From Lineus longissimus (Eukaryota > Nemertea > Pilidiophora > Heteronemertea > Lineidae), in assembly GCF_910592395.1 (NCBI RefSeq), contig NC_088324.1, positions 15,526,953 to 15,590,952 on the forward strand: a stretch of DNA of 64,000 nt, read 5' to 3'. Position 1 is the first letter of the stretch. The number at the start of each line of letters is the position of its first letter. This document shows, piece by piece, positions 1 to 53,376 of this stretch. Both the position numbers and the translations under genes were made by a program. The notes beneath the pieces are model-generated. The model was given only the letters and a program-made list of their open reading frames with translations, did no database searches and was not told where the DNA came from.

Positions 1-615
1 TAGAATCTGGAAATGCCACACGCCAAAGCCAGCTGAAATCATCATCATCGTCACTTCGTAATCTTGGCGGCATTGGGTGCTTTATTTCCTCACTTTCCTC
101 ACTATGGTCTTCCGCAATCGACGAACTAAACCAGCTGAATAAATCTCCACTGGCTTTGGGCGCCGCGGGCTTCTCTTCTTTGCTCTCCTCTTTCTGTCTC
201 AGCTGATTGTACCAACCGAAAGGCCCGTCTGCTTTCTTGCCAGGTGAAGGAGAAATGTCTTTTACACTGTCACTACTCCATTCGTATGGCTCAGGTAAAC
301 CAGATAGTTGTGACATTGGCGTAGGGGGTCCATCTTTGCTACTTTTTTCCTGCTCGCGTGTTTGCTGGTACCCACTGAATACCTCTTTCGATTCCGTGGG
401 TTGAGGAGCAGAACTGTCTTCAAGAGGTTCACTTTCGTCACTGCCTTTCCCTTGTTCTTTCCAAAAGGACGAAGCAACAGGTCCCGTCATCACAGCAGCC
501 AATGGCACACCCAAAAGCCTCTTCCTCGGTTTGCATGTACATTTCGGGCACCCTCGGCCAGGTCGGGAATAGCCATAATTGCAAAATACTCTACAGGTGG
601 TTACGCATGCAGTTT
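1..615 (-). CDS. Lipocalin-antistasin gene, exon 7 (partial): antistasin module and acidic tail
   Basis: After the acceptor CCCCTAAATTTCAG the frame stays open for 204 codons to the window edge. Residues 260-284 follow the antistasin pattern C-x3-C-x3-C-x10-C-x2-C-x-C with the internal Tyr-Gly and Gly-Cys. Arg265-Val266 falls where antistasin and hirustasin carry their reactive Arg-Val/Ile bond, so a trypsin-like target is predicted. A basic KPRKR (285-289) follows, then a short hydrophobic stretch and a Ser/Glu/Lys/Pro-rich tail. Aromatic islands FGW (389-391), FSW (416-418) and FSW (450-452) punctuate it, the last after five Asp. The tail looks disordered. The stop codon is outside the window. 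Other frames over this stretch are shadows. Confidence 0.82.
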
Positions 616-3600
616 CTGAAATTTAGGGGACATGCTGTTAGACACGCAAGTAGGTTTTGGCTTCAAGCTTAATTTCCTCACTCCTGTTGCTAGCTGTTCG
701 CGGCTAACAGCAAATCAGGCAGGATTTGCACCTACAACTAGTCGGGGATCATGAGGAGATGCCGACAAAGGACTTCTCTTTTAAGAAACCCTGCGCATGT
801 CTAGAACCACTCTTTGGAGCGGGTTCTCGTCTAGTGTGTAGAAACGTGAACATATATAGTGTTCTAGGGATGAAAGAGGAAGTACCATGCTGCATGCGAT
901 ATCTAAGTGTAATGCATATTTTAGCGATCAGCTTGCATGTATTTGTTGATTTACACACCTTCTGATGCTATTTGTTCGGGACGAAAAGAGATGAGGTCAT
1001 CTTCAGTCATTGCATCTAAACCAGCCTGAAATGAAGATGGCGAAGCTTTAAATCACTAACAACTGCACAAGATGGACATTTGCCAAATCTAGCACTTCTC
1101 AAGTTGAACGATCTCGATCAAGAGACGGTTATCAATCAAGACAGGCATCCACAAAACAAGTTTCAAGGTACTGTTACACGATCATTGCCGCAGTTGAACG
1201 CCACGTCGAGCTTTTCCTTTTAACTTGTGCGTGTGCTAATCCTCCTCTGGCGGCAACTCACAAACCAACCACACACTAAGTCACATCGTCTGATGGGCAA
1301 ACCCTTTTAAAGTGACAATGATGGCACAATCAACTCGAATTTCGTGTTATGGGTGAACGTGAAGTGACACTGTTAGCTCATTCAACTCCTTTTTCTTCTT
1401 CTTGAAGCACTACAGTTTCAGATTATAGTTGTATGGATATGAAGTCAACAGTACACTTACCCTAAGTTGAGTAGCCCAGTCATGAGCGGCCAAGTCTGCA
1501 GCACGTTCAATATCTGCGAAACGGAGCAGAGGAAATCACTTGACAGATAAACAATACGGTAGGGCTATCAGCAAGATATGCAAGGGGGGATCAAACCCTG
1601 GCCTCCATGATGAAAGCCACAAGTCCTAATCAATGTAGATTCTTGAGATTGTACTACTTGTTCTTTTATTTGGTAGAAGCACAGAAGAACCTGTCATATT
1701 GGTTACTTCTTAGTCGGTTCACGAACGTCTGGAATGATGTTTAGAGAGGCGAGAAGAAGGGTGTGTAGGATCTTTGCTCGAGTTGTTCATTCAAAGTTCA
1801 CACAGCGGCCGGCTGCCGACATGGAACAAGAGGGGAGTAGGATATTTGCTCGAGTTGTTCATTCAAAGTTCACACAGCGGCCGGCTGCCGACATGGAACA
1901 AGAGGGGAGTAGGATCTTTGCTCGAGTTGTTCATTCAAAGTTCACACAGCGGCCGGCTGCCGACATGGAACAAGAGGGGAGTAGGATCTTTGCTCGAGTT
2001 GGCCATTCACAGTACACACAGTTTCCGGCATGTCGATATGGTACAAATTCTTGCTCATCTCGTCGCAACATTTAGTCATCTGAGCGGACTTACCTCGTTT
2101 AAAAATGTGTGAAGTCTCCCTGACAACATCCATACACGAGACAGTCGTGTGCGACACAAGCTGAAGCTCATCTTCTTCAGTGCACAGGAACTGTTTGGCC
2201 ATGTGCTGCATCCTCTGAAGGTCATCAGAACTGACGTCACTCGATCTGCTCAGGATAGTTACAATGCCTGCGCTGCTCTGGCGACATATCTCGGGCTGGG
2301 CATAACACTCGAACACGAGGGTAAAGTTGTAGTCGGTCCACACGATGTTGTATGTGCCTGGAATTAATGGGGAAGATTAAGACCATGAGGCGCTTGTTTC
2401 TCTGAAAGGAATGTAAGGATGGAGAATAGAAGGGTATACGACCATTACCTGTGATTCCAATGCCTATCACCGTGGCCGTGTAAACACCATTTCGAGGGTC
2501 ATCCGTTACTCCGTCTAGCTGCCCTCGTACTGGTGGAATACACCCTGTTTTTCGCGTGTCTGGACTGAAATCGAGAAGGGTTGTACATATACGTAACTGT
2601 GTTGTTGTTTGGTGGTGTAAAGACTCTCGAGATGGTTTGCAATGGAAGCCATTTGTCTCTAAGTTTTCGTTATGTTTCTTTCCAACAACTTTATTTCTCA
2701 GCAGTATTGGTTGCTATCAGAACACTAGCTCGACCCTGAACGCATTGATCTGATGCAACGGTATACTCTCGAAAGTCACTAATGACAAATATCGTCATCT
2801 AGAATCCACTCGTTAATGTTACGGTCAATTTTAGCTCTAGTTTACTCCAACGATATCCATGGACGCTACTTTCTTAGAAAACGTAATTTGCCACCGGTTT
2901 TGAACTTACTTTTTGAAACTAAACAGGCCACTGACGGAGCCAGCCGCATTGCCCATCGACCCATAAGAGTAGACGCTGCCATCCCACGAGTATTGCCGCT
3001 CGTAGGGGCCATTCGTCCTCGCCAGCACATACCACTCGCCAAAAAACTGAAATGAAAAAAGAGAGGTTGATCCTACACCCAAAGATATGCGGCAGTTCCA
3101 TTGTGATTTTCTCGGCACCAGTGTGATGTGGTCACTAACGGCGAGTTATTTTGATAGTCAGTAGGTAGATCGGAAGAGAAGATTCCCCGAGCGTTTACAA
3201 AGTTACACTTCCATATTCAGAGAAATGGATCTTCAAGTCAACTATCAGTGATGTGGAGAAATCGCCTCCCGTGAGGTCTGAAAAGTTATCAAAACATTGA
3301 TGTTGATGTAACCATCTATACTGTGCTAAAAAGAGTTGTTTTCTCTCCGTCAGATCGTTTGATGATTAAATGGATAGGAACGTTCACCTCCTTGGGGGCG
3401 TATGCCAGTATGCAGTAGGCAATGCAGCAAGGTCTGCGAGAAATTATAAGAGTGAGCAATCTCTAGTCAAGTAGGACTGGGTGATTCTTACTAGAAATTA
3501 CGAATCGAACCACCAAAAGGTTTTGCTATTGAAAGTCCATACTCCAATGACCCATGATCAAGATGGTCCAGCTCTGTGCAGTAACAACAGTTACACAGCA

Positions 3601-6600
3601 ATGCGCAATTACTGTACATGCACATGTTCAGCAATGCACACTCACATGAACAAGGTAACATTGTATTCAATAATTTTTATGGACATATAGCGGAAGTATG
3701 TAAACTAAAACTCCATCCTAGCCCTGATTCATCAGTCATGTAGTGAACTAGAAACCCCGCCATTAGCCCCTGGAAACCCCGCCATCAGCACATCTGGCAA
3801 GGTTAATCAAAACAAGCGTGAACAAAGTTTATAGATAGCTAATTCCATGGTGATCATACTGGTGAGTAGGCTCCCTTTCTGTATCCAAGGTAAATAAATC
3901 GAAACAGGTCCGTATACTGTCTCATGGCTAAAATAGACAGTCACTGACTGCTCATCAGGAGGGGTGGGCACAATCATAGGGACTACATTGGTGATCATAC
4001 GGTCTATTACCATTTGACGACCTAGCAGGAACAATATTACACAGAAGCAGTCGGCTCAGAAATTGATTGAACCTTGAACGCATCTTTAGGATGACATTGC
4101 TTCGAAAGACACTTTCCAGTGGTCAACTGGGCAAAGGAACTAAGCGATCCCAGTCCCAATCATCCCAAGTATTCACTAGACAAACTCATGATTCCTCTAA
4201 TCAAAGTGATCATTCGGTTAATTAGGAGTACATTGCTAAAGGTCAGAGGAAATCGAGGCTTGGGGCAGACACGCGAGCTCAGCTGCTCGGGCAGGTTGCA
4301 TGAGTGCGCTTTGGTACCTGGATGTCCACACTGCATGAACTTTGGAAGGTCTTTACCGGTAAAATTTAAACTTTGAGGTGGAAAAGCGTTGTTTCAAAAG
4401 CTACATATACCTCATTGAGGTTGCGAGTGATTGGGCATAGCGGTTCAATCTATGCCCTTTAATACTAGGTTCAAACATCAAGAAGTGCATATCCAACTCA
4501 TCGCATATTGATTGTCCATTACGAACTTTTTTATGACACATCATACATATCAGTTCGGTAAATACCTTTCCACTCTTTTGCCTACTGAAACATTCCTTTC
4601 CTTAAAAAAGTGACTGTTGGTTTACCAAGTCTGATGCCGTTTACCGTGGCTACTGCGTATCCCCAATAAACTGCAAGGAGAGTCGATCTTTTTGTTTACC
4701 TCACAGTTGGACGGCGTGAGAAACGTAAAAGTTGAGCATTTTACGCTGGAATGTATCTACAACCCGTTTGTAAACAATTACATAAAGATGATGTTACTTT
4801 GAATTTCCTCGAGCCCTGTCTGAAGAATTCATGTTACCAGTACGATTGCAAGGAATTGCACTTTCTTGCCAACAATCTGGGGGGAATAGTAGTGATGGTT
4901 ACCATGAGCACAGACTGTAGAAAGAATATCAACATGGTAGAACACACATGTTTTAGGACACCTCCACGTCGATGCAGTCGCAATGAGTAGCCGGGGAATT
5001 ATAGAGTAACCCATTTAGCCTACTTGTCACTCTACTAATTTCACGATGAGTTGGTGAGGTTTACCTACAGACCTTTTGGCCTATCTGCCACTCTCATTCA
5101 GGATGAGTTGCAGGGTAAACTTGTCACTCTAATTTCACGACGAGTTGCTGAGGCCGTAACCGCTGCCACTCGCATCAGTTCACAATTTAAGAAGGTCTAA
5201 GTATGAGTTGCACCGGTTGAGGTAATGCAAGGTAAATGTTAATAGGCAAAGATTAGAACAAATCAAAGAGGTTACGTTATCAAGGAAGGAGATAGGTCGG
5301 GGTAATGGCTTGTAAAGGAATGCGCTAATGTTCAAGGAAAACGAACCACATTCTAGAAAACTATACTTGGGGAGCCAGTTTTTTTTTAATATGAAGAAAT
5401 GAACCATCGTTCAGATAGAAAGGTCATCGACACAATACCGGTAGCCCACTATATTTTGTTAAGACTGTTGGCATCTCGCGCTCCAACCAGAAACACAGCC
5501 ATCCAGAAATCGAGAAAAAAGCCTTCTCAACATCAATTTTAAACCTGTTCTCGTGAGAACAGTTTCTTCAGACTGTGAGAGATATTAAAACGAACAAACA
5601 AAGTGAGGTTTGAATGACATAACAGGTGGTAGGAAGAGTATAACCACGTAGAATATGACAAGGTGTTTACTATTGGATTCAAGGCAAGTTCGCCTACCTG
5701 GAAAAGCCGCAGTTAAAAAGAATCGTAAGATACAAAGACAGACGATGAGTTAGGATATCTCCTTTGGGAAGAAGGGAGAGAAACACGTTATATACTCTAT
5801 TGCTTTTACTGGAAATGACCATGGAGGTAAACATTCACAGAATTGAGTCTTTTTGATTAGATAGATTAATCTAGATTCGATATGACCAATCAAGTCCACT
5901 ACACCATATGGTTCCGATGTAGAGTGACCTCACGACCGATGCAACCTGTCAATTCGTTAGGTTGAAGAAACTCTCTGGGCAGACCTTGATTCTTGGTATG
6001 GCGCCCAAAGATTATTCTTCAGAGGCAGAACGATGCAGATGCACAAGTGCTAAGATAGGATAAACAAGAGAACTGCTGTCTTATTTCCCTGAACCTGGCA
6101 ATGTTTTTATCTGATGTCCACAATCAGCCATCAGATAGTGAAGCTCCCTTGCAATGTAATGTCCTTTTTTTCGCGATTTCATCGTATCATTCTTAACTAC
6201 GCAGAAGGGAGGTAATTTCACTCGTGTTGCCAGTAACTGCGTCGATACTAATTCTTTCGGGTCATCACAATATTGTTTCAATTTTTTTGTTATTGGCATT
6301 TAAAACGACCTTCTATCTAAAGCAGCACCGCGATTTTTTGTATTGTTTTTCCTGGCTCCAAGCTCAACATTTGTTTCTTTAGTATTCTTGAGTCTTTTCC
6401 AATGAAAACTTTCTCTCTTCGAAGTTGAGATTTTACTTCAAGACATCGTCTCTAAATGAAGTTAATAAGATCCATTTTAACCAGACTGTTAGAATCTTAT
6501 TGTCAACTTGAATTGATATCAGTATATATTATGATAAGCATTTCCCTAATTAGGGTGAATTCACGTCATCTTGAAACTGGTCTGAGAAACAGGTTTTTCC

Positions 6601-7681
6601 GGAATTGGTGACATATGCGTATATCAGCGTACAGAAAAATGTAAATTCCCTAGGAGTAGGCGCCATATGACTTGATGAGCGGAAATCGCCAATGAGACCG
6701 GAGACCACAGGAAGCTCAGTAGTTGAAATGTTGAGTAATATAGCTTAATTATATGTCCATCAAAGGCCTTACATATATCCTGGGGGTACTGTTGGGGGTA
6801 TACATATAGAGCCAGTAGAAATTATTGACAAAATAGCAAAGCTCTTGACATCCATTCCTTAATTATATTTATATGACGAATGGATGTCAAGCACACTGCA
6901 ATTCTGACAAGGACGTGTTGGCAGGGGAAGTTAGCCAATGGCTTTAGGAGCCTTACTCGATTTGATTGCTTCGCTGGCCTGATTTGATGGTCTCGATAAT
7001 CTAATTGGCAATTAGTGTCGTGTGCGACACTATTACAACAAGTTACGACAATACGCCCACCATCACCGGTTCAAGGATGCATACTTTTGCTTAGTGCTGT
7101 CTTAGAATTAACGAGGTCTATAGGGCAAGAAATCAAATGACATGCGAAATCTGAGGTTTGGACAGTGCTCAACAGTATCCCACCATGACAAATCACCGAC
7201 CAGGGCTGCAAGACCTAGTTGCGGCATTGCTTTTGCCCAATACTAAAGCAAGGACATGGACCAATATTTTCCTACGATGAAATGCCACGATTACAAGTCG
7301 CCGTTGTACCAGAGATGAAATACCTAGTTGTGTAATAAAATATCTTTTACGGTCGCAGTGGCACTCCAGTATAGGTCTCTGTTGCCATAAATTTCTAAAC
7401 ACGAGGTTATGAGCTGTTGATTTTCTTTGGAAAAACTGTTAATCTCAGTTGACTGGTATAGTGGGCAAGGCCATGAGTTAACCAACTTTGGCCGGACCGG
7501 CAAACGAATGCGAGAACAAGAATACGTACAAATATATTGTACAACTAACCTGCGTGATATCGACATCAACCCTGGGTGTCTCCGACACCTGGCAGTCCGA
7601 CCGTCTCTCCCTCAACTTGTATGACGGCGCAGCTACACAAAGTCCCAGCACAACTAGCACAGCGCCTAATTTTAACAACAT
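1..7681 (-). CDS. Secreted lipocalin-antistasin fusion protein (seven exons, 3' end outside window)
   Basis: Seven exons on the minus strand join without a phase conflict: 7550-7681, 2910-3046, 2449-2564, 2094-2357, 1461-1513, 959-1025 and 1-615. They give 461 residues and continue past the left edge. Order: signal peptide (1-18), R-E-R-R furin-type site (24-27), lipocalin domain (about 30-205) with G47-x-W49-Y50, T136-D137-Y138 and R166, linker (206-257), antistasin module with Cys 260, 264, 268, 279, 282, 284, then an acidic low-complexity tail with three F-x-W motifs (389-391, 416-418, 450-452). Lipocalins bind small hydrophobic ligands in a beta-barrel; antistasin modules inhibit serine proteases. 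The protein should be secreted. Domain identity comes from motif recognition and no search was run. The fusion rests on matching intron phases and GT-AG sites; a transcript would confirm it. No conventional promoter was placed; a weak TATACA lies about 100 nt upstream of the ATG. Confidence 0.8.
959..1025 (-). CDS. Lipocalin-antistasin gene, exon 6: linker
   Basis: A 67-nt exon between CATCTTCATTTCAG and GAAG|GTGTGT, phase 0 in and phase 1 out. It encodes residues 235-256, an acidic linker containing MTEDDL and ending IASE, and supplies the first base of Glu257. Its exit phase matches the antistasin exon, which starts with two bases of a split codon. Without exons 5 and 6, exon 4 (phase 1 out) could also splice straight to exon 7, so skipping both would keep the frame and remove a 40-residue linker. 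Confidence 0.72.
1461..1513 (-). CDS. Lipocalin-antistasin gene, exon 5: linker
   Basis: A 53-nt exon between TTTCGCAG and AGG|GTAAGT. It completes Asp217 and encodes residues 218-234, IERAADLAAHDWATQLR, an Ala-rich stretch with helical character. It enters in phase 1 and leaves in phase 0, which fits both neighbours exactly. Being short, it rests on the strength of its splice sites and phase compatibility rather than on homology. Confidence 0.7.
1583..1640 (-). repeat. Degenerate tRNA-Glu-like sequence or tRNA-derived SINE head
   Basis: Read on the minus strand, this stretch has an A-box-like TGATTAGGACTTGTGG, an anticodon-arm-like GGCTTTCATCATGG and a B-box GGGTTTGATCCC. The order and spacing copy the tRNA-Glu genes elsewhere in the window, with TTC in the anticodon position. 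The acceptor arms do not pair well. It lies in intron 4 of the lipocalin-antistasin gene. It is either a decayed tRNA-Glu or a SINE head. Confidence 0.5.
1767..2060 (+). repeat. 72-bp minisatellite, three near-identical copies plus one diverged
   Basis: Copies start at 1767, 1839 and 1911 and differ by single bases (for example AGGATC versus AGGATA). A fourth from 1983 decays after about 20 bp. The unit contains CGGCCGGCTGCCG. It fills the first half of intron 4 just after the exon 4 donor. Because 72 is a multiple of three, open frames persist across it in more than one frame; these are artefacts. Confidence 0.9.
2094..2357 (-). CDS. Lipocalin-antistasin gene, exon 4: T-D-Y and R motifs, C-terminal helix
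   Basis: 264 nt, acceptor TTAATTCCAG, donor CGAG|GTAAGT, phase 1 in and phase 1 out. It starts TYNIVWTDYNFTLVFEC, the second lipocalin conserved region (T136-D137-Y138) followed by the strand ending in Cys146. ILSRSS places the third-region Arg at 166. Residues 171-190 form the amphipathic helix expected after the barrel (SSDDLQRMQHMAKQF), with Cys187, and Cys203 lies where lipocalins pair a C-terminal Cys with the barrel. The arrangement (Gly-Ile-Val-Thr, Leu-x-x-Arg, a helix with Ala, then Glu-Asp and Cys) resembles apolipoprotein D and alpha-1-microglobulin. The frame stays open into the intron, across the minisatellite at 1767-2060, which is not coding. Confidence 0.88.
2449..2564 (-). 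CDS. Lipocalin-antistasin gene, exon 3: mid-barrel strands
   Basis: This 116-nt exon is too short to stand out as an open frame by itself. The acceptor is CTCGATTTCAG and the donor ACAG|GTAATG. It enters in phase 2, completing the Asn90 codon, and leaves in phase 1, matching both neighbours. It encodes residues 91-128, including Cys98, a Gly-Gln-Leu-Asp-Gly turn and the strand-like ending VYTATVIGIGIT, which suits alternating barrel strands. It gives the expected spacing between the G-x-W and T-D-Y motifs. The introns on either side are 345 bp and 91 bp. Confidence 0.8.
2910..3046 (-). CDS. Lipocalin-antistasin gene, exon 2: lipocalin G-x-W-Y motif
   Basis: The acceptor has a strong pyrimidine tract (CTCTCTTTTTTCATTTCAG) and the donor is AAAAA|GTAAGT. 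The exon is 137 nt, entering in phase 0 and leaving in phase 2. It begins FFGEWYVLARTNGPYERQ, the first structurally conserved lipocalin region: G47, W49 and the following Y close the floor of the barrel. The A1m-type free Cys that follows this motif in alpha-1-microglobulin is absent; Asn-Gly-Pro stands in the region. The remainder (Tyr/Ser/Gly-rich, ending SGLFSFK) fits barrel strands B-C. The 4.5-kb intron upstream separates it from exon 1. Confidence 0.85.
5020..5155 (+). repeat. Imperfect direct repeat, about 95-bp spacing
   Basis: CTTGTCACTCTACTAATTTCACGATGAGTTG near 5024 recurs as CTTGTCACTCTAATTTCACGACGAGTTG near 5119, each followed by TGAGG, and a weaker third echo (GCCACTCTCATTCAGGATGAGTTG) lies between them. 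It is a decayed small tandem duplication inside intron 1. Confidence 0.6.
6844..6891. repeat. Perfect 14-bp inverted repeat with 20-nt AT loop
   Basis: CTTGACATCCATTC (6844-6857) is the exact reverse complement of GAATGGATGTCAAG (6878-6891). The loop CTTAATTATATTTATATGAC is almost all A/T. It could be a small fold-back element or a cruciform-forming site; no function can be read from it. Confidence 0.85.
7550..7681 (-). CDS. Lipocalin-antistasin gene, exon 1: signal peptide and furin-type site
   Basis: The ATG at 7681 opens 44 codons that end in phase 0 at a donor reading CAG|GTTAGT. The first 18 residues, MLLKLGAVLVVLGLCVAA, are a textbook signal peptide: a Lys near the N-terminus, a Leu/Val core and Ala-Ala at the likely cleavage point. 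Residues 24-27 are R-E-R-R followed by Ser, which fits the furin consensus R-x-(K/R)-R, so a short propeptide may be removed. Cys30 follows directly, as in lipocalins whose N-terminal Cys forms a disulfide. The 3' end, VDVDITQ, joins in frame to FFGEWY of exon 2, placing the lipocalin G-x-W motif at the expected distance. The frame runs on past the donor into intron sequence, so the open frame alone overstates the exon. Confidence 0.8.
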
Positions 7682-9753: not shown

Positions 9754-9797
9754 ATGAGAAGGTCTAGTAAGAAATTGCTTAAATCGTTACCATGAAA

Positions 9798-9869
9798 TCC
9801 CATATGGTCTAGCGGTTAGGATTTCTGGCTCTCACCCAGGAGGCCCGGGTTCAATTCCCGGTGTGGGAA
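9798..9869 (+). tRNA. tRNA-Glu (CTC), array copy 1
   Basis: 72 nt. The acceptor arms TCCCATA and TGTGGGA pair over seven positions, with A as discriminator base. The D arm has GTCTAGCGGTTAGGAT, the anticodon loop is CTCTCAC (anticodon CTC) in a TCTGG/CCAGG stem, and the T arm is CCGGGTTCAATTCCCGG. A TTTT Pol III stop lies at 9877-9880. It differs from copies 2 and 3 by one D-loop base (AGCGG for AGTGG). No CCA is encoded, as expected for a eukaryote. Confidence 0.95.
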
Positions 9870-9964
9870 CGCAATATTTTATGCTGTGTCTCATTTTCTT
9901 GGCAAAAATTTTCATTTTTCATGAGAAGGCCTAGTAAGAAATTGCTTAAATCGTTTCCATGCAA

Positions 9965-10036
9965 TCCCATATGGTCTAGTGGTTAGGATTTCTGGCTCTC
10001 ACCCAGGAGGCCCGGGTTCAATTCCCGGTGTGGGAA
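9965..10036 (+). tRNA. tRNA-Glu (CTC), array copy 2
   Basis: Complete 72-nt cloverleaf with the same arms as copy 1 and AGTGG in the D loop, the usual form of this tRNA. A TTTT terminator follows at 10044-10047. It delivers glutamate at GAG codons. Confidence 0.95.
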
Positions 10037-10129
10037 CGCAATATTTTATGCTGTATCTCATTTTCTTGGCAAAAATTTTCATTTTTCATGAGAAGCCCTA
10101 GTAAGAAATTGCTGAACATTTCCATGCAA

Positions 10130-10201
10130 TCCCATATGGTCTAGTGGTTAGGATTTCTGGCTCTCACCCAGGAGGCCCGGGTTCAATTCCCGGTGTGGGA
10201 A
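10130..10201 (+). tRNA. tRNA-Glu (CTC), array copy 3
   Basis: Identical to copy 2 over all 72 nt. Its 5' flank lacks two bases relative to the other units and the base after the gene is C in a CACAATATTTT context. The TTTT stop is at 10209-10212. Confidence 0.95.
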
Positions 10202-10254
10202 CACAATATTTTATGCTGTATCTCATTGTTCTTCACAAAAATTTTCATTTTGAT

Positions 10255-15432: not shown

Positions 15433-15624
15433 GACACAGTATACACGTACAAATTAAAACAATATGCGTTCCCACACCGGGAATCGAACCCGGGCCTCCT
15501 GGGTGAGAGCCAGAAATCCTAACCACTAGACACAGTATACACGTACAAATTAAAACAATATGCGTTCCCACACCGGGAATCGAACCCGGGCCTCCTGGGT
15601 GAGAGCCAGAAATCCTAACCACTA
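15433..15624 (-). repeat. 96-bp tandem duplication cutting through a tRNA-Glu gene
   Basis: GACACAGTATACACGTACAA begins at 15433 and again at 15529, and the two 96-bp units match along their length. The junction lies inside the tRNA, so one copy keeps a full gene and the other lost its 5' end. Multiple-of-three length leaves a spurious minus-strand open frame across both. Confidence 0.93.
15469..15531 (-). pseudogene. 5'-truncated tRNA-Glu (CTC) copy
   Basis: 63 nt matching the intact neighbour from the D arm to the 3' end. The first nine bases, forming the 5' acceptor strand, are replaced by the start of the next repeat unit, so no acceptor stem can form. The internal A-box is partly and the B-box fully intact, so Pol III could still start here. 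Confidence 0.9.
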
Positions 15625-15636
15625 GACCATATGGGA
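15565..15636 (-). tRNA. tRNA-Glu (CTC), isolated minus-strand copy
   Basis: Complete 72-nt cloverleaf with anticodon CTC. The T loop has TTCGATTCC where the array copies have TTCAATTCC, making this the more canonical gene. A TTTT terminator is at 15552-15555 on the minus strand. It lies 5.4 kb from the array, in the opposite orientation and with unrelated flanks apart from the first bases after the gene. Confidence 0.95.
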
Positions 15637-18343
15637 TTGCTGGTGAAGTTCTGCATTCTGTTTTTGGTGATGAACCCGACCACCCGCGTTGGATGTTTTG
15701 GGTCTTTGGCCACTCGAATCATCTTGATCCAAACGCTCACGACTCCGAAATGGCAACCTCTCGCAAGTTGATGTGGGGATGTTGTCGGGTCCCTTGGTTT
15801 GAAATTGAGATCCAGATAATTAGTTCATATAATTAGTTTACCAATTAGCAGACTATGACGTGTATTAGTCTTTAATGAATATAAACACCATAAGTTGACT
15901 TTCAACATTCCCGTTATTAACTCTGCTATAATAATATTTGCTCCAATCTCTATTCCTAGGGTTTTGGTAGACGGTCAATGCCGTGACAGTGTGAACCAGA
16001 AAGTGCATGAAGCGTTTCGCTAGAACCTGTTAATTAGCTAAACAACGGTCAAACCTGATCAAAAGCGCTATGTGCTGTCGACGTGTGCTAGATTCACTCC
16101 GAAAATTAACAAAAACAAACGGAACTGATCAGCATGAGCCATTATTAGTAGAAATGCACAAGTGATCCCCGTATGCTATTGGAACTCGTCATAGACAGAC
16201 CAACTCCTCTTCTTATTTGTGAGGACCTGTGTACTGAGTAAAAAGTTGTACTTCTGAAATACCAGGTGCAACATCTGTGTGTGTGCCTTGTCTTTGCCCA
16301 TATATATACATGCATTTCAGCAATTCAATTCGATAGATAGCTGGAGAGGCCGCGACTGAAGAGGGAAAACAGACTCACAAAATGTGTCAATCTATCTTTC
16401 AGCTTACCCCAAAAATAAGGGGAGACTCAGAAACAGAAAGACACTCAAAAACGTTACACCTCTCTGCTCTGAGTGCGAACCGACTCTGTCGCCAGCTCAT
16501 AATTCTAACGATTGGCGTCGCCACTGTCACTTTTGCCCATTCAGTTGAAAAGATGTTCTCGATTAAAAAACATTTACAATTATGCTGATTAAATATTTAT
16601 CGAGCGATAGAAGAATTGTTTGTTTGTGCGTACACTGTAACAATGGGCCATTGTCATTTATCGTATTGTTATTTCAATACTTTAAAACTGCTGCTTGTAA
16701 TTACATGCACTTTTGATAATTATTTTCTTAACCTGATAAACAAACAATTGGATGAAAAGGGACTACTTTAATATCATCTATTTGATCGCACGCTGACTAT
16801 AATGTGAGGAGCCAAACAAAAAACTGAAGCTGAACAACTTGGATTGTAATATCTAGATCAGATTGTGGTGGATGAGGGGATCGGGGTCATAATTTTCATT
16901 GAAGTGAACTGGGACTGGCCCATCCGGAGCATTCATACATATATATTTCCACCTTCCTGCACATCCTCAGAAATGCCAGCTCAACAATGGACTTCTAGCG
17001 TAACAATGGTGCAGTAACGCAACAATGGAGCTTCTTCCTTGAGAGGAAATTGGCCAAACGAACGCTTTCAATAATCATTGCTGGCTCTTCATTAATTTCC
17101 TTTCTTGTTAAAACATTTGGTTAATCTTCATTTCCACAAAGATCCAACAAAGGGATGGCTTTACGTCAATAAACAGACTGCTCACATCAATGTGAGCAGC
17201 ACAGCAATTGCGGCCTCAACTTGTTCTTCGCCTAGTCTATCTTGATTCAACAGGGACTATAGTCACTGTGGGTCGACTCTTTCCAAGAAGCACCTCAACG
17301 ATAGAAGGACAGAACTGAACCATCGTAGTATACTATATGTTCCTTTTCTTCTGATGTTATAATCTTGAGGAGGATTGGGATTACTAATCAGTAAAAAATG
17401 ATATTTAGAAATCCTCATAAGTGACGATTTGGTCAGGTTGGTGATTCAGTTTTAGCATGCACCCGATTTAACATGACAGGCCAATCCAATTATCGCTAGA
17501 TTATTCATTTCTAATACCGTTTCCTTGTTTTCGTTTCGACCCATTGCCTCATGCACTGGTTGGCGCTACCAGTGGGTGGCGTTCATGTGTGCACTCCAAT
17601 TTGGCCAATCGCTCCATTTGTTTTGTTTTAAATACAACATCCCCCCTGTGTTTTTATTGCACTTTTATACTTATCACTCTTAGCAAAGTGAGCCTTGAAC
17701 GTGTGTTACTGGGCACTACAGCTCCTTTTTCTTAGACCATCGAAACAACTTGACAAGAAGGAAAACAAAATCGCAATTCTGGGGGTTGCAGCTCTTCAAT
17801 TTGTCCCGTCCGAGAGCGTCTTCGTCACACTGGAGCAGGGCGTTCCTTTAACGTGAGGGTTGCACAATGAAAACAGTCATTTATTTCCTGTATAAAACCT
17901 TGCAGTACATGAATATCAATAATACATCCACTAATTAAAAGCACTATCGATTAAACGTAAATCGGCAAATTTACACACGTCAATCAAATGATTAATTAAA
18001 TTATCCTTGGTTCGTGTCTTAATAATGTTGAAGCGGAGATGAAATACATGTAATGACAAAGGCCCGTCAAACACTCGAGAGAAAACCAAACAAGTCGCCA
18101 GAACTTGGTGACAGGTTGTATGGTTTGTGCGGCTGCCGTTGGCCCCTAATATAGCAACAAACAGCCCAGAAAAATACTGATGGAAGGTCATGGATGAACA
18201 AATAACAGCCGATTTTAGAGCTTTTAGACTTCAAAAAATTGGGTTTGTCTCAAAGCGCTTCAAAACAACTATCATGGGGTGATAGGGGATACCAAATACA
18301 GCGCAGGACCGCTGAACTGGACCCGTGAAGGACGAGGCAGCGG
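15637..18343. other. No supported gene
   Basis: A 68-codon frame starts with ATG at 16382, about 80 bases after a TATATATA, and has one hydrophobic stretch, but nothing else supports it. The rest is AT-rich non-coding sequence. Confidence 0.45.
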
Positions 18344-22900: not shown

Positions 22901-25703
22901 AAGTAAATCTCGTCGCCACTTACAACTGGGACCCTACAATGATGCACTTAATCTGAGAGTTACTAAAATCAAATTGCATGAGTATCATGCATGATTGATG
23001 ACCAGGGTTTTTCACTGAAAGGGAGAAAACAATCGAACAAAACGTCTTAAGATGTCATTCGGAATGCCAGATAGTCGTTCTCTCAAACGAAATCGACTGT
23101 CCTAAAACGGGTCTGCTGCAGAGCACCAAACTTGTGTTGTCACAGTGGTATCCGTTGGTCAATAGGCATAGTCTCTCTCTTCTTCAGGGGCTGGTGAGAT
23201 ATGAGATAACTAATAGAGCTTTCACGGAAAAATTGAAGTTTTCTGTCTTATAACCTAGTTGATTCCTGAACACAGTATTCAGACTTGTAACACTGAGTGT
23301 TATTGGGTCAATTTCAGTGACTCGATGTACGCAGACCACGGTCAGCAAGGGGATATGGATGGGATAGATCAAGCGATGGGTAAGTAGGACCACGGTCCTT
23401 GCCATGCAACCCTCAAATCCTTCATTGGTCATGTCATCGTCCTTTCACTGTGAGTTTGTGTGTCTGATTGTATACGTCGTTTGAAGTTTGATGTTACCAA
23501 GCCTACTAGTACTGTATATCATTCGTCTCTTGAACTTTGCTGTTTCGTGTTTTGTTGTCACCAAGCCTCTCCCTCATATAATTCTCCTCCTGTAGGTACT
23601 AACAGCAGAGTTACCCAATGTCATCCTCCTATCATCGATTAACTACTTGTTTCTTATTCTGGACTACTTCTTGTGTTTCTTCGTCAAAATCTCTGTCATC
23701 TTTGGGCAGGTATATTGTCTTCCTGACGTCATGGTCATATCTTTGACCATTTGCGACTCGTATTTGTCTGCATGCAACATGGATCTTTCTGAGGACCTCT
23801 ATGGTGAGCAAATGGTATTATCACTAACCGGTGTTCGTAGACACAATATGACACAACATGTGATGCGCACCTCTAGTTAACCCCGCTTGGGTGGGGAGGG
23901 GGCCAGTCAGGTGAAACAACCTGATGCTCTGGGTACGTTTCACGAGGTAGGTCCTACCAGCTACAAATGCCATGAGTAAATATTACACACTCTTACACTG
24001 ATGTTGAGTGAATGGCTCTATCATAGAATTCAACGCAAACCTGTATTTCAAATCAATAGCAATTCCCATTCTATCTGGAATTCGAAGTTCCGCCATTAAG
24101 GGCTAATTGACCATTTACTCAATCTGCCCCAAGTATTTAAATGACGCTTAATGGGCTATAAACATACATAACTGTTGATAATTGCACTAAACATACACAA
24201 TAAAATCTGAAAAAAACCACACTCTCCTACAAACATCAATAAATGCATTAGTCTAATTTGAATGTCTCTGTCTGATAAGACGACATTACCATTACACCTT
24301 CCATTCAGATTTTTAAAATTGTGAATTAGCATGCTCTATGAAAGAAAGCACGGTCAGGCAAAGTTACAATCCAATTCAGTTTACTGCATCTTGTCCAATC
24401 AAGGATTCATACGGAGAGGGAATGTGCAATGGTCAAAGTGACCATGGTTTTTTTTTTAGTGCTTCAATCTCAGGGTACGTTTCAGGCGCGAGGTACAGTG
24501 GGTTGCCCGTGCCCTGGATGCCTTTGCTGTTACACATCTCCATGGGATGTGGTTCTGTCAAGGCCAACAACCAGGGAACACGGTGAGCGGAGGTCGGGCA
24601 CTGTGGACACGACCTGTATTTATCCTAGTATGCGATTAATCTGAGAACTCCAATTTCCATTTATGAAGGTGAACAGATTGGCTTCGTAGGCTGTAGGCTT
24701 TTCCCTTTCTCCTGTTGTTTGAAAGTACGAACTGCCCATCCAATAAAATAGCTGGCAACTAATTGCTGTCTTTTCTGCGCTGAAGGTCCTGATAATAAGA
24801 TGAGATGACACAGACCCAATAATCTGAAAGATTTAATTAAAAGCCTGGCCTATCTAGGGTTGTAATTATCTCGGGCCTAATAACATGGGGTGTATGAAAC
24901 GCGATATGCAACAATATTATCAACTGCTATGATGTCTGACTGTGGTAAATAAATGGTGGACACTGGACAAGGTATGCCAAAAAGTGTCTCAGTTACCTTG
25001 CTAGTGGAAATCGAACGGCGTTACACACGATGATACCAAAACGTGCCTTCTGTTTGTAATATTAATGGATATGATGGACCTACACTGCGACACTGGAAAC
25101 GATAATGTCAAGGGTGAAACAGTTGTCACTGGACACTGAACATGTCTAAAAGGTGAAAACAGCTGGAAGGTACACAGTCATGTGATCGTTATATTTGCCA
25201 GGTTCCTTGGCACTACACACAGCAATGCCATGCTACATCGGACAGCTCGACACACAACTGATCCCATCGCGATGCAACCGAACACCCAATACATTTCAAT
25301 GTGGCCCAATCCGAGAAGCAATGAAACGGTGCACAGTTGACATTCAATTACAGCATGATTGCCCGGGGCGGCTTGATAGCTTTCGATTGGCACAAAGCAG
25401 TGGCTGAATTACGTCCGATTTAATCAAGAATCAAAACTACCAATTACGGGCACACAGAAACCATCTAACATCTATTTACCATTGCTGTACCAGTTCTGCT
25501 CGGTTACAGCACGTTTTTGCATTCATTCTAAGCTGGTGACATTCCATTCCCTGTTATAGCTACAAGCTAAGCCCCTCTTCCCTTTTACCAATTCCCTTCT
25601 CAAATTCATTCCTCCTACAACTTTATCCTCTGAGTGTCTTGTTCTTATATCATGCAGTCTATATAGATCCATATTGAACCATGCTCCCATAATAATCTTA
25701 TTA
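19933..25703. other. No supported gene; some frame-dense sequence at 19.9-20.6 kb
   Basis: Between about 19933 and 20553 frames of 86 to 114 codons overlap on both strands, including a minus frame (20230-20553) whose composition looks protein-like. No start, splice pair or domain supports any of them; a decayed coding sequence is possible. From 20.6 to 25.7 kb I see only AT-rich non-coding sequence. Confidence 0.4.
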
Positions 25704-42000: not shown

Positions 42001-45000
42001 CCAGGAATGAAATTAGTCGCCATATTCCAATTAGGCCAAGCCAGATCAGCTCAGCTTAGTCGTGAGCCAAAACACCGACCGGGGGTCCCACTCAAAAATT
42101 GGCTAAAAACTGATCAAGAGTGATCATTAGCGACTTACTACTAATGAAAAAGTCGCCTAAATCCATCGGGTGTCCGCAATTAATTCACTGTGGCGAGATG
42201 GCACGTTCATTAATAAAGGCTTAGGCCTAGCGACTGCCAATCAGACTTAGATTGACCATTAGGACACCAGACACCACTAAGGGCCACTTTAGCTGGGTTT
42301 AATGGGCATTCTTTTGCATTTTTTCATGAATTTAGTGGATTTTGGTTTGTCATGTTGTGGTGAAGTGCCTAGATAAACACCGTAACTATAAATCTCGATT
42401 TTAGGTACCATTCAGGTTGTGTGAGTGTTCTCAAACAGCGATCCAAAGAACTATTGTGGGAGGATGATAATTAGCTCGAAAGGCCAAGATTTCCGATCTG
42501 TTGCAAGTTAGAAACATTGCTGGAGATAACACGGGGAGATACCAATTCACTGTTAACCATTAGCAAGTAAAAAAAGTAAAAAACACACAATCGTAACAAT
42601 GACTTCGATAGTTTTGGGACATTCACAAGCAAAATGTTGTTACAGCGGAAGTGTCTCGGTATACTAGAAACCTTATATTAGGCTATAAGCACCAATGATA
42701 ATACACATAGCTCACTCAATGGGAAAATGTCGTAAAAATTCCAGAGGTCCTCCTCAATTTGTGGACATGGATTTTAACTCCCGAAGTGGTGTCATTGGGT
42801 GCACGGAATCCAACTGTTCCTGCCCAGCAGACCAAATATCTTTTACCATACAATGGGACCATCAAGTTGAGGAAGCATTCAAGCTCAACAAACTCAAGCT
42901 TACCACATGACCGAAACAAATACCTCTGCTCTCACACAATTGCTATCAATTGGCATGCCAGAATTGAAATAAGCATACGATCAAAGTTTAAATCACCTTA
43001 CGTAATACATGAGATCACTGGCAGTGACTAAACTCTCTGTCAATACCTTACTCCATATAATATGCCACTGCTGTCAATACCATAATGTTACTTTTACTCC
43101 ATCAAAGAAACAACTTAGCTGATAAATTTTCTGTCTTATTTCGGTTTCTAAAACACCTCGCTTTTGATGGTTTGTATTGGCAGATGACTCACAAATAGCC
43201 ATAGAAATATGTCGAACACAAGTCACATTGTACATGCATTATGCACTTCTTAACTATAGTGATGGAACTGATAAAAAACTACTATGTAAGAGACGCAGCG
43301 TTCCTTTTAAGAGAAAGAGAGAAGAGTATTGAAAAATCCTCGCTAATGTCTCCTGGTGAGCAAGGAGGGTTAGAAATACGTCGGCACGTAAGTCTCGCTG
43401 CTAATGTAACACTTAGCTAGATCAAAGGCGGCAGGCTCTAAAAGGAAAACTAGCATTTAGCTTAGTGCCATGTATACTGGAGTCAAAACATTAGGGTATC
43501 ACCAGGAAGAACTGTGAAGTTGCTTGTCAAAAACCTTAAGGTATCACTAGGTACAGCAATGGGGCAGTTGGTCAATCAAGTACATTAGGGTATCACTAGG
43601 TACAGCAATGGGGCAGTTGGTCAAGTACATTAGGGTATCACTAGGTACAGCAATGGGGCAGTTGGTCAAGTACATTAGGGTATCACTAGGTACAGCAATG
43701 GGGCAGTTGGTCAAGTACATTAGGGTATCACTAGGTACAGCAATGGGGCAGTTGGTCAAGTACATTAGGGTATCACTAGGTACAGCAATGGGGCAGTTGG
43801 TCAAGTACATTAGGGTATCACTAGGTACAGCAATGGGGCAGTTGGTCAATCAAGTACATTAGGGTATCACTAGGTAGAGCCTCATCCAGAAAAAGGCCAA
43901 GCTCACATCCATCGCTTTATACACGTGTAACGCATTTAAGTTTCCATATCACATCCACATCCAGGTAACTATTTCCAACAATTAGTATTGAGTTTAATGA
44001 AATCGTTCTCTCTTTAAAACCTTTTGAAGTTATAACTCGTTAATTTCGCCAAGAACAAAAACACAAATTGAGAGACCATTAAAAAGTTTATAATGGGGAA
44101 TTCGAAATTCACCCACCCTCTCGAGTGCAATAGTAACTCCATTTAGTTCCAACGTTTTATGCCATTAATGCGGAATTTAATGAGGAAAATTGAAGGAAAT
44201 TAATGCAATGGACAGCGATCGTTACAGACGTGCTTTAACGCGCTAATTGCCGTCTTTTGTAAGTCGATATCAGGGTATTGAGATAGAAGCATTGACAGTG
44301 AAACACTTGTCAGAGGGGAAGGGACACTCTAAGATGAACGCCGTGTGTACAGCGTTAATGCCATTACTAGAGATTGATCTGGTCCAGTAAGAGGGGAAGG
44401 GAAGAAGAGGATTTAAGGTACACTTGTATCTCACTCACTAATCTAATTGGAGAGGTTCTGTATTACATGGAGGGACCATTAGTATGGTGATGTCGCACGG
44501 GAGGCTCGAGCCTGAGGCGATACCGAAACACTCCGTATAATACGAGCGACTCGGTGCTGGATTTGGTGCAGTTATCGACACTCTCAAAGCAGTTGCATCG
44601 TTCAAACTTATGTTGATATATCCTAGAATTGATAACATCGAGACTTCAGACTCGAGTGCAGTGGTCGTCTTGCTGTACTTATTTTCAAACTACGGCCAAT
44701 GCAAACTTTGCCTGAAAGTTTTCAGTTCTTTCTCATGAGAGGATATATGACCATAAACGACCTTTCCTCATCCCACAGATCACGACTATTGTCAACGATG
44801 CATGTATCGGACTACAAAGTACTATGATTGTGATAATGACGCTTCGGGTATCAACATCTCTTTATTTACGATCAAGGGCAGCGCTGAAACAATTGCAAAA
44901 ATACCACAGTGCCGAAGGCTTCGTCAGAAAGATCGAATCATTTCTAGCAAATTCTCTCCTGTGTAAGTCCCTGTAGTGAGGCAGAGGGTATCTGCTGGTA

Positions 45001-51000: not shown

Positions 51001-53376
51001 TTGCCCACAGCACTGAGGCCAGAATAGCGACATGTCAGTTCAGTATCTAAGCTAGTCAAAGCACGCAACCTGGAAAGAAGTTTGAACCCAATGCAGTCGA
51101 ATCATTAAGATTGCAGTTGAAAGTAAAACATTTCGTGTCCGTGATTTCCACAAAGGGTTGCACAACACGACCCCCATGTTTAAGGATGGATTTAACCTAT
51201 TTAAGCTATCTTAAGCTTAACTTAAGATAAAACAGGAACATTTATCCAATTACGCCTACTTGTCATCCGAAATCCAGATACAGTCGATCAACTTCAAGAG
51301 ATATACCTAGTCTCCAAATAATACCCTTTAATTGGCCCCTTATAAACCCTTACCCAACCATCTACTGTTGTATTAAGAAGTTCTTATGCTCCTACACAGG
51401 GGGGTAACGAGGTCCTGCAGGACTGCAAGACCCTGAGGGATTTGACAGGCCAATTAGTCCCCGAAAGTCCTCCTCGACCGGACTGGCGCTACTTCGTCTC
51501 AACCTGTATAATTTTAATGTGCGATCATTATTGCTTGAAAGCTCAGTGGCTCCGGACTACTTCATTCCTCAGACTTGTTTATGTTGCAAACTCTGGAATA
51601 CAAGGATGGACAGCGAGGTATCGACGATTCTCACTCTTGAAGGTTGGTGTGTTCCCCCATCTTCGCCCCTGATCACTACCAAATCTCTTCTTCCCGTCTT
51701 TGTCTCTGAGCATCTTTACTGCTTAGGGTCTCCTCGGTGCCTGACATTCTTCTAGAAGCGAAGTGATCGGAGGATTCGCTGATCAGAGGTAACATGTTGG
51801 TATGTGGCCCTTTTCAACGCATTCTCTCGGTCCATATGGACTATAGCATAAAATATCAGTGGTATGGACCATCCGTTTGACTCGGAGGAAAAGGGAGGTC
51901 ACTTTCGTTGGTCGTGGTGGTTCCTAATTGAAGTCATACCGTATTTCGTCGATCTTCATTCCATGGCTGATAGTGTCAGTGCCATTGGTATGCGAACTCG
52001 ATTAAACCGTCCCGAATGAGACAAAATCAGACAGCGTGCAGAATAGAGTGTTGTATCATACAATCTCTTTGACAACATCATCATATTGACAGTTTACTCA
52101 TTCAAACCAAAAACAGCAAGTCTGATGAAATCTAAACACCACTGAGAGCGTTTGTGTATCCAATTCTTCAATTTATACATATTGTTCACATTCAATTTCA
52201 TTCCTAATACATTTCCTAACACCAGATATCACTCCAATGCGTTGACAAGGCCTCCCAAATGGTATAATGTTTCCCAAACTAACTTACAAATCAGATATAT
52301 TCTCTTTGAGCCAAACAGGAAAGGACAACTAACCCCTTGTGGTCATTTTCCTCGTTTCACATTCACCCAACCCTCAACGGTATAAATGTGAATAAAAGAC
52401 GCGTATGTAACACAAGAGAACACAAAGTATATAGATATTAGTCTCTTTACCCTTTGTTAGTTCTCGAAATCGAATTACAGCTTTCAGAGCTTCTTTCATA
52501 ATAGATGCCCTGAGTCATCGGACTCGGGCAGAGATGGTTGTGACATTGAAACCCGGCACTGGGACGACTGCCTACAGATGTCTCCGATTTCGCGGTTTGT
52601 CAGCCTAATGTTAAATTGATTTTGTTGAATCCGCAGATTGAGAATCAAATGTTTGATAGTGAGAGACTGGATTGCCAAGGGACATGATAAACTGGTGGGT
52701 TTCATCCGAGAGCCGGAGCTTGGTTCGCGACGGCTTCATATAAAATTCATCGATCAATATTTCAGTGTAATTGGACCAACCAGAATGCACAAATGACCAC
52801 TGATAACAATACTGAGTCGACGCTCTTACTGTAGATGAGCATACCCAGTGGTGATATTCATCTTCGAGGAGACGGTTACAACAATTGAACACACTCATTT
52901 TGTTTCAGGGTCGTCTTTGTATATCCTCTTCAAGACACGTTTCTGATCAGTAAGAGCTGTATTGCCGCTCTTCAAAATGGCATCTGCCGTCTATAATGTT
53001 AAAGCTTCCTTACATCATTTCTTCTTTGCAGTTATATCCGATCAAAGGTGGTGCCTTATGCAATTCTGACCGTCATTTTGTCTCTCTTTCTTGCAGGCAA
53101 TCCGGCCCTGAACACATCAACCGCCAACACAATGACGACAAACGCCACCAACAACAATAACAATAACAACAATAACAATAACAATCGTGAAGCAAACATG
53201 CGCAGTTGCGCAGGATGCGGCGCGCGGATATGTGACCGCTTCCTGTTACATGCTATGGATAGATACTGGCACACAGGTTGTTTGAAATGTTCCTGTTGTC
53301 AAGCACATCTTGGAGAAATAGGAACATCTTGTTTTGCGAAAGGAGGAATGATACTCTGTAAAAATGATTACATACG
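33062..53376 (+). CDS. LMO4: LMO4-type LIM-only protein (first two coding exons; 3' part outside window)
   Basis: Exons 33062-33092 and 53097-53376 join in phase 1 to give 103 complete codons plus the start of Arg104. LMO4 is a nuclear adaptor of two LIM zinc-binding domains and little else; it binds LDB/CLIM and other partners and does not bind DNA itself. Visible here: a short N-terminus, a run of 12 Asn (29-40), and LIM1 with ligands C48, C51, H69, C72, C75, C78, C98 and D101. Stretches such as DRFLLHAMDRYWH and LKCSCCQAHLGEIGTSC are close to vertebrate LMO4 and distinguish it from LMO1-3. LIM2 and the stop lie beyond 64000. The second exon is near certain; exon 1 is supported by phase, donor and promoter context rather than homology. 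Confidence 0.85.
33093..38354 (+). other. LMO4 intron 1, first part; no gene seen
   Basis: Starts at GTAAGT. The longest frame, 147 codons at 35005-35448, begins at a non-ATG codon and has no recognisable domain. No repeats or RNA genes recognised. Confidence 0.5.
38355..38420 (+). repeat. tRNA-derived SINE head, copy 1
   Basis: CTGTCGGTTGAGTGCCTG has A-box character and TTTGGTTCGAATCCTG contains a consensus B-box GGTTCGAATCC at tRNA spacing. No closed acceptor stem, so it is a SINE head or tRNA pseudogene rather than a working tRNA. Confidence 0.6.
38583..38640 (+). repeat. tRNA-derived SINE head, copy 2
   Basis: AAAGTCGGTGGAGTGCTTCT resembles the A-box of the copy 228 bp upstream, TCGTGTCAA is shared by both, and GGGGTCGAACCCCG is the B-box region. 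The two copies are related and in the same orientation. Confidence 0.55.
38641..43482 (+). other. LMO4 intron 1, middle part; no gene seen
   Basis: AT-rich sequence. From about 41.4 kb on, motifs such as CCATTAATG, CCATTAG and CTAATGA are frequent. Frames up to 117 codons (41556-41909) show no coding features. Confidence 0.45.
43483..43876 (+). repeat. 45-bp minisatellite, eight copies plus one diverged
   Basis: The unit begins TCAAGTACATTAGGGTATCA and continues through CTAGGTACAGCAATGGGGCAGTTGG. Its GGTATCACTAGG core starts at 43540, 43589, 43634, 43679, 43724, 43769, 43814 and 43863. Six inner copies are essentially identical. The first and last intervals are 49 bp because both carry an extra TCAA. 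A more diverged copy lies at 43483-43506. Multiple-of-three length creates spurious repetitive open frames on both strands. Confidence 0.93.
43877..49700 (+). other. LMO4 intron 1, third part; one long frame of doubtful status
   Basis: A 174-codon plus frame spans 47719-48243, with its first ATG at 47746. It has no domain, no repeats and no splice or promoter context, so it is not called as a gene. Elsewhere AT-rich sequence with no recognisable feature. Confidence 0.4.
49711..49938 (-). mobile_element. tRNA-derived SINE, minus orientation
   Basis: Minus-strand head: TTCATGGCATAGTGGGTAGG (A-box) and GATCCGAGGTCGAACCCGC (B-box) within about 60 bases (49875-49938). The body runs leftwards through a doubled TGGTCGTTTTG and ends near TTTTCTAACTTGGCCGTTTG and CATGCATGTCAGCTTTA. 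A second copy of this end lies at 50363-50422 on the other strand, showing the body is repetitive. Confidence 0.6.
50363..50422 (+). mobile_element. Partial SINE body, plus orientation
   Basis: TGTTTTCTAACTTGGCCGTT followed by TATGCGTGCATGTCAGCTTT matches the 3' part of the SINE at 49711-49764 in inverted orientation, with a short indel between the blocks. No tRNA-like head is found upstream, so it is 5'-truncated. Confidence 0.6.
50423..53096 (+). other. LMO4 intron 1, last part; no gene seen
   Basis: AT-rich. A minus frame of 95 codons at 52611-52898 has no coding support. The intron ends with a long pyrimidine tract before the LIM exon. Confidence 0.5.
53097..53376 (+). CDS. LMO4: LMO4 exon 2: poly-Asn tract and LIM domain 1
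   Basis: The acceptor is GTCTCTCTTTCTTGCAG and the donor ATACG|GTAGGT; 280 nt, phase 1 in, phase 2 out. Translation gives a Thr/Asn-rich lead, 12 Asn encoded by AAC/AAT, then the whole first LIM domain starting RSCAGCG and ending KNDYI with the Arg codon split at the donor. All eight zinc ligands are present (CCHC then CCCD). A splice right after the first LIM domain leaves LIM2 for a downstream exon, not found up to 64000. Confidence 0.95.
53148..53184 (+). repeat. (AAY)n trinucleotide repeat coding for 12 Asn
   Basis: Twelve AAC/AAT codons in a row just before the LIM domain. The mix of AAC and AAT makes the repeat interrupted. Read on the other strand it gives a poly-Leu shadow frame. Confidence 0.9.

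Follow-up and report, generated by a model that had tools for sequence, protein, structure and literature searches.

Introduction

Antistasin modules are common in lophotrochozoans, and a candidate gene joining such a module to a lipocalin is considered here in the nemertean Lineus longissimus, on the minus strand at the beginning of a 64,000-nucleotide stretch of contig NC_088324.1 (RefSeq assembly GCF_910592395.1, forward-strand positions 15,526,953 to 15,590,952), hereafter the window. We put at roughly 70% the probability that this locus is one gene encoding a secreted precursor composed of signal peptide, lipocalin, antistasin-type module and tail. As predicted from the spliced sequence, the precursor would comprise, in order, a signal peptide, a short propeptide reaching to RERR, the lipocalin, a Lys-Arg pair, a 40-residue linker, the six-cysteine module, a second Lys-Arg pair and an acidic Ser/Pro/Trp tail.

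The closest described arrangement is that of AMBP. As set out in the available part of one account, alpha-1-microglobulin (A1M) and bikunin are joined by VRR and cleaved before secretion, the gene is unique among lipocalins, A1M is encoded by six exons and bikunin by four, and the reason for their joint production is largely unknown (PMC7965949). The L. longissimus locus resembles AMBP in combining, within one frame, a secreted lipocalin, a basic site (here Lys-Arg at residues 215-216, where cleavage is predicted) and a serine-protease inhibitor. It differs in that the inhibitor is of antistasin type where AMBP has Kunitz domains, in its long acidic Ser/Pro/Trp tail and in exon number. Because Pfam searches found no Kunitz domain in the 461 residues encoded within the window, the gene is not AMBP. 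The accessible portion of a further source presents AMBP as a lipocalin fused to an inhibitor and mentions no second such case (PMC8420045), the available excerpts of three papers that name both families describe no lipocalin-antistasin fusion (PMC6476756; PMC13368403; PMC6617849), and a literature search for invertebrate relatives of AMBP returned no paper. The pairing may exist in public protein predictions.

On the inhibitor side, the available section of a study of poecistasin states that one-domain antistasin-type inhibitors carry ten cysteines, paired 1-3, 2-4, 5-8, 6-9 and 7-10, and that Arg27 is the inferred P1 of poecistasin (PMC6265900). With the leech proteins poecistasin, hirustasin and guamerin, the nemertean module shares the cysteine spacing of the reactive half and a Gly-Cys before the last cysteine cluster, and its P1 Arg is that of the trypsin-inhibiting members, whereas guamerin has Met; it differs in having six of the ten cysteines and in lying inside a larger precursor, behind a lipocalin. 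Multidomain shell-matrix proteins of Lottia gigantea also contain antistasin-like modules, but these are paired with WAP domains and not with a lipocalin, so far as the available text reports (PMC3374290). On the carrier side, the likeness to ApoD/Blc-type lipocalins lies in the GxW region, through the Lipocalin_2 family, and in a weak Blc match, whereas here the scores fall below cut-off and extra modules are attached.

Gene model

The first-pass annotation had proposed seven minus-strand exons in consistent phase, and all of them were recovered: spliced together, they yield 461 residues with zero stops across six introns, all bounded by GT and AG, with phases of 0, 2, 1, 1, 0 and 1 in order (Table 1). 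Since the reading frame is still open at window position 1, the protein's end lies beyond the window. Within exon 7, a candidate internal donor at position 94 (minus strand), with an AATAAA directly behind it at 86, allows the segment 615-94 to score 23.0 as an internal exon, against 17.1 for the open form; if this donor is used, the gene may run on into further exons outside the window.

The G+C content is 50-55% in exons 1-5, 43% in exon 6 and 49% in exon 7, and 39-47% in the introns, while the codon-position asymmetry of exon 7 is moderately raised (among 1268 equally long windows, 42 equal or exceed it). The minisatellite of intron 4 has a 72-bp unit present in 3.6 copies with a 96% match, and it is open in several frames.

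Table 1. Predicted exons and associated features of the candidate lipocalin-antistasin gene (all on the minus strand; acceptor ranks among 489 AGs and donor ranks among 499 GTs in 8 kb).
Feature	Position	Strand	Length	Phase	Content	Acceptor rank	Donor rank
Exon 1	7550..7681	-	132 nt	ends in phase 0	signal-peptide-like start, RERR furin-type site, first lipocalin Cys		8
Exon 2	2910..3046	-	137 nt	0 to 2	lipocalin GxW motif (FFGEWY)	1	6
Exon 3	2449..2564	-	116 nt	2 to 1	mid-lipocalin	19	9
Exon 4	2094..2357	-	264 nt	1 to 1	TDY and Arg motifs, C-terminal helix-like stretch, Cys, Lys-Arg at end	13	1
Intron 4	1514..2093	-			72-bp minisatellite (1765-2021), AATAAA at 1670; stop at 1942 if unspliced		
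Exon 5	1461..1513	-	53 nt	1 to 0	linker	6	2
Exon 6	959..1025	-	67 nt	0 to 1	acidic linker	2	4
Exon 7	1..615	-	615 nt	entry in phase 1	putative antistasin-type module, then acidic Ser/Pro/Trp tail; runs off window	40	
Six-Cys antistasin-type module	533..610	-	26 residues		ACVTTC...CTC, Arg at P1 position		

Statistical support for the exon chain

The splice sites in question had originally been picked by consensus, and an exon-chain finder was therefore run as a check; this program is untrained and knows only average amino-acid composition and the splice consensus. Across 8 kb of the minus strand, the six donors occupy ranks 1, 2, 4, 6, 8 and 9 of 499 GTs, and the six acceptors ranks 1, 2, 6, 13, 19 and 40 of 489 AGs. 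Applied to 10 kb of the minus strand, the finder returned precisely the seven exons at exon penalties of 18 and 22; lowering the penalty to 14 left exons 2-7 as they were, lengthened exon 1 to 7702-7550 and brought in five weak exons. Run over the whole minus strand at a penalty of 20, the program reproduced exons 2-7, together with the longer exon 1 (7702-7550) and two weak upstream exons.

At a penalty of 18 the seven-exon chain totals 54.2. Markov shuffles reached a maximum of 12.7 in 200 sequences derived from the minus strand and of 7.4 in 30 derived from the plus strand, and elsewhere in the real window twelve 10-kb stretches, six on each strand, gave no chain above 10.4. The two small linker exons, 5 and 6, score 5.2 and 5.4, and both fall in phase inside the 1.5 kb separating exons 4 and 7; internal exons of equal quality in shuffled 64-kb strands average between 0.6 (10 shuffles) and 0.9 (20 shuffles).

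Lipocalin and antistasin-type domains

In the lipocalin part, motifs occur in the expected order: GxW within FFGEWY in exon 2, followed in exon 4 by VWTDYN, an Arg in ILSRSS, the helix-like stretch SSDDLQRMQHMAKQFL and a late Cys in HTTVSC, GxW, TDY and Arg being lipocalin motifs. The match to Lipocalin_2 (PF08212), the family of ApoD/Blc-type lipocalins, covers profile positions 1-29, the GxW region, and NCBIfam gives a weak match to PRK10477 (Blc; E 0.017). Control versions of the lipocalin part, one reversed and three shuffled, matched neither the Lipocalin nor the Antistasin families. The same was true of the module controls, one reversed and five shuffled with cysteines fixed; across the ten controls of both parts, a single match arose, to DUF4411 at E 0.044.

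The cysteine spacing of the module, C-x3-C-x3-C-x10-C-x2-C-x-C, is that of the reactive half (Cys 5-10 of 10) of antistasin-type inhibitors. The six-cysteine pattern, which was defined after the module had been seen, occurs once in the six frames of the window and in 0 of 40 Markov shuffles. Local alignment of the module with poecistasin (PMC6265900) gives a score of 57 with gaps of 3 and 1 residues, a score that none of 5000 full shuffles attained, and that 5 of 5000 attained when the cysteines were kept fixed. In this alignment the module Arg, which follows the second cysteine, pairs with poecistasin Arg27, while module Cys 1 sits on Cys 4, where the disulfide scheme would want Cys 5 and hence a different, shorter gap. 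The six cysteines suit the second half of poecistasin, whose three disulfides close among themselves; a complete ten-cysteine domain is absent, only six cysteines following the lipocalin within the window. Since Arg occupies the P1 position, a trypsin-like target would be expected, and the module would act as a substrate-like (standard-mechanism) inhibitor of a trypsin-like protease.

Opposing evidence and alternative readings

From the sequence, a single gene joining the lipocalin to the antistasin-type module is the best reading, and several results weigh against it. For the domain assignments these include the Pfam scores, which fall short of cut-offs that are statistical thresholds and not structural features. 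Lipocalin_2 scores 23.0 bits (E 8.5e-5; cut-off 24) on the excised lipocalin part and 19.7 bits (E 8.6e-4) in the whole 461-residue protein, and the Lipocalin family (PF00061) is matched faintly on the excised part (E 0.17, 12.5 bits against a cut-off of 23). For Antistasin, whose cut-off is 21.2, the isolated 26-residue module reaches 20.6 bits (E 6.6e-4) and the whole protein 13.7 bits (E 0.095). The profile search suggested with the first-pass annotation thus brings up both Lipocalin_2 and Antistasin, each under its curated cut-off. Sequence searches of the PDB, run with the 461-residue protein and separately with its lipocalin part and its module, returned zero significant relatives; for the lipocalin part, the lipocalin Fel d 4 (E 0.59) was outranked by antibody chains. 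Single-sequence AlphaFold models, made for two contiguous pieces of the window, are poor: exon 4 taken alone reaches a pLDDT of 55.7 with strand-strand-helix-strand-helix-strand-strand, and a fold search with this contiguous, low-confidence model gave zero matches at E <= 0.001, while the module (pLDDT 70.1) is modelled as a helix (residues 2-13) and two short strands that lend no support to an antistasin fold, a result given little weight because it was made from a single sequence.

Further reservations concern the gene model and the predicted processing. The splice matrices and finder weights are generic textbook values, and on the real plus strand six candidate internal exons score at least 5.4, among them the LMO4 exon, counted twice, and one antisense to exon 4, so that shuffles underestimate the real background. 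Of the basic pairs ending in Lys, at residues 94, 287 and 383, the first lies within the lipocalin and the last within the tail, and the boundary windows used in the basic-site test described below were chosen after the sites had been seen.

Among the alternatives, the one that survives best, although we regard it as unlikely, is a different transcript end, in which the exon 4 donor is read through, translation stops at 1942 and poly(A) is added after the minus-strand AATAAA at 1670, yielding a lipocalin-only protein beside the fusion or in its place. Exon 4 left unspliced scores locally much like the spliced form (15.4 against 14.5) and is open to 1942, with the AATAAA lying downstream of that stop; both points count for early termination and form the serious doubt about the fusion, and for this reason a lipocalin-only transcript is retained as an alternative. 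The exon 4 donor, on the other hand, ranks first among 499 GTs, and the read-through tail enters the minisatellite. Were the intron 4 end the only one used, exons 5-7 would be left without a signal-peptide exon and the model would drop from 54.2 to 27.4, or to about 43.2 with a second gene. A ban on the exact exon 2357-2094 led the program to reuse the same donor with a shorter exon, and is uninformative on the donor. If the lipocalin part alone is transcribed, the locus would be an ordinary lipocalin gene.

A pair of adjacent genes is clearly less probable still; here the lipocalin gene would stop within intron 4, and a separate antistasin-type gene would begin with an exon somewhere from 2093 to 616, or with one that was overlooked. 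A lipocalin gene with its stop at 1942 scores 27.4 and the best second gene below 2093 scores 15.8, so a summed two-gene parse (about 43.2) falls about 11 units below the fusion and was rejected. That second gene is carried wholly by exon 7 (17.1; its own first exon contributes -1.3) and begins MTEDDLIS.. without a signal peptide, which is implausible for a disulfide-rich module, and two good in-phase linker exons lie in between. The single-gene reading does not hinge on those linkers: because exons 5 and 6 together measure 120 nt, exon 4 stays in frame with exon 7 when both are skipped (43.6 against 54.2), and the fusion is therefore independent of them.

Least probable of all, with very little weight, is a correct exon chain bearing one wrong domain name, the cysteine-rich piece being another small disulfide module or the barrel a non-lipocalin calycin-like domain, since the sub-threshold Pfam scores and empty PDB searches that favour it are set against the ordered GxW, TDY and Arg motifs, the PF08212, faint PF00061 and PRK10477 matches, and a module that has the cysteine spacing and P1 Arg of antistasin-type inhibitors while its controls match neither family.

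Predicted processing and the acidic tail

The gene is predicted to be transcribed and its precursor secreted, and cuts at RERR, KR and KR would release a lipocalin, an inhibitor of a trypsin-like protease and the tail. [K/R]R pairs occur at three places only in the 461 residues: 26-27 (within RERR), between signal peptide and lipocalin; 215-216 (KR), between lipocalin and linker; and 288-289 (KR), after the antistasin-type module. All three boundary windows were hit in 5 of 20000 shuffles, and in none of these were pairs lacking elsewhere. The position of the three basic pairs at domain boundaries suggests that cleavage would separate a carrier, an inhibitor and an acidic tail.

Within the window, the tail (1-520, minus strand) runs to 173 residues, of which 33 are acidic, 28 are Ser, 19 are Pro and 6 are Trp, and it includes five S-x-E triplets. 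Its Trp residues recur in short, repeated motifs (PYEW, PFGW, DLFSW and DDFSW). A phosphorylated or mineral-binding role for this segment would be a guess.

Other features of the window

On the plus strand, 53097-53376 corresponds to an exon for the first LIM domain of an LMO4-like protein; its 60 residues find their best PDB match in LMO4 (E 2e-29), and an Asn-rich run precedes them. Two further internal-exon candidates on this strand, well-scoring but unassigned, lie at 17736-17852 (score 11.0) and 23596-23803 (7.3). Three tandem 167-bp units at 9754-10251 (plus strand) each hold one tRNA-Glu(CTC) gene; another tRNA-Glu and a partial copy lie at 15433-15636 (minus strand), inside a 96-bp duplication. 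A 45-bp tandem repeat, in 7.5 copies with a 96% match, occupies 43536-43880.

Origin and significance

The arrangement of the introns offers an indication of how the fusion may have come about. Phase-1 introns lie both after the lipocalin (intron 4) and before the antistasin exon, and exon 7 would itself become a symmetrical 1-1 exon if the candidate donor at 94 were used. That the modules meet at phase-1 introns points to exon shuffling, by which an antistasin exon came to lie after a lipocalin gene; judged from exon structure, this is the likely origin of the fusion.

Set beside AMBP, the idea put forward in the first-pass annotation, of a lipocalin-antistasin joint gene built on the AMBP principle, holds in part: one gene is the best reading and the arrangement fits, whereas no Kunitz domain is found and both domain scores lie under their cut-offs. 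Its further suggestion of an ancestral version of the AMBP idea is unsupported, the inhibitor belonging to another family. If real, the locus would be an AMBP-like arrangement of independent origin, probably carried by one gene. Only tentatively do we propose the fuller interpretation, namely an independently evolved, exon-shuffled counterpart of AMBP, whose cleavage at RERR, KR and KR would yield a carrier, an inhibitor of a trypsin-like protease and an acidic tail, and by which the coupling of carrier and inhibitor would have arisen at least two times in animals.

The lipocalin may help the inhibitor to fold, a partnership already suggested for A1M and bikunin. If true, the existence of another, unrelated lipocalin-inhibitor precursor would suggest that selection acts on the coupling itself, and the chaperone proposal for A1M and bikunin would become testable on an independent case.

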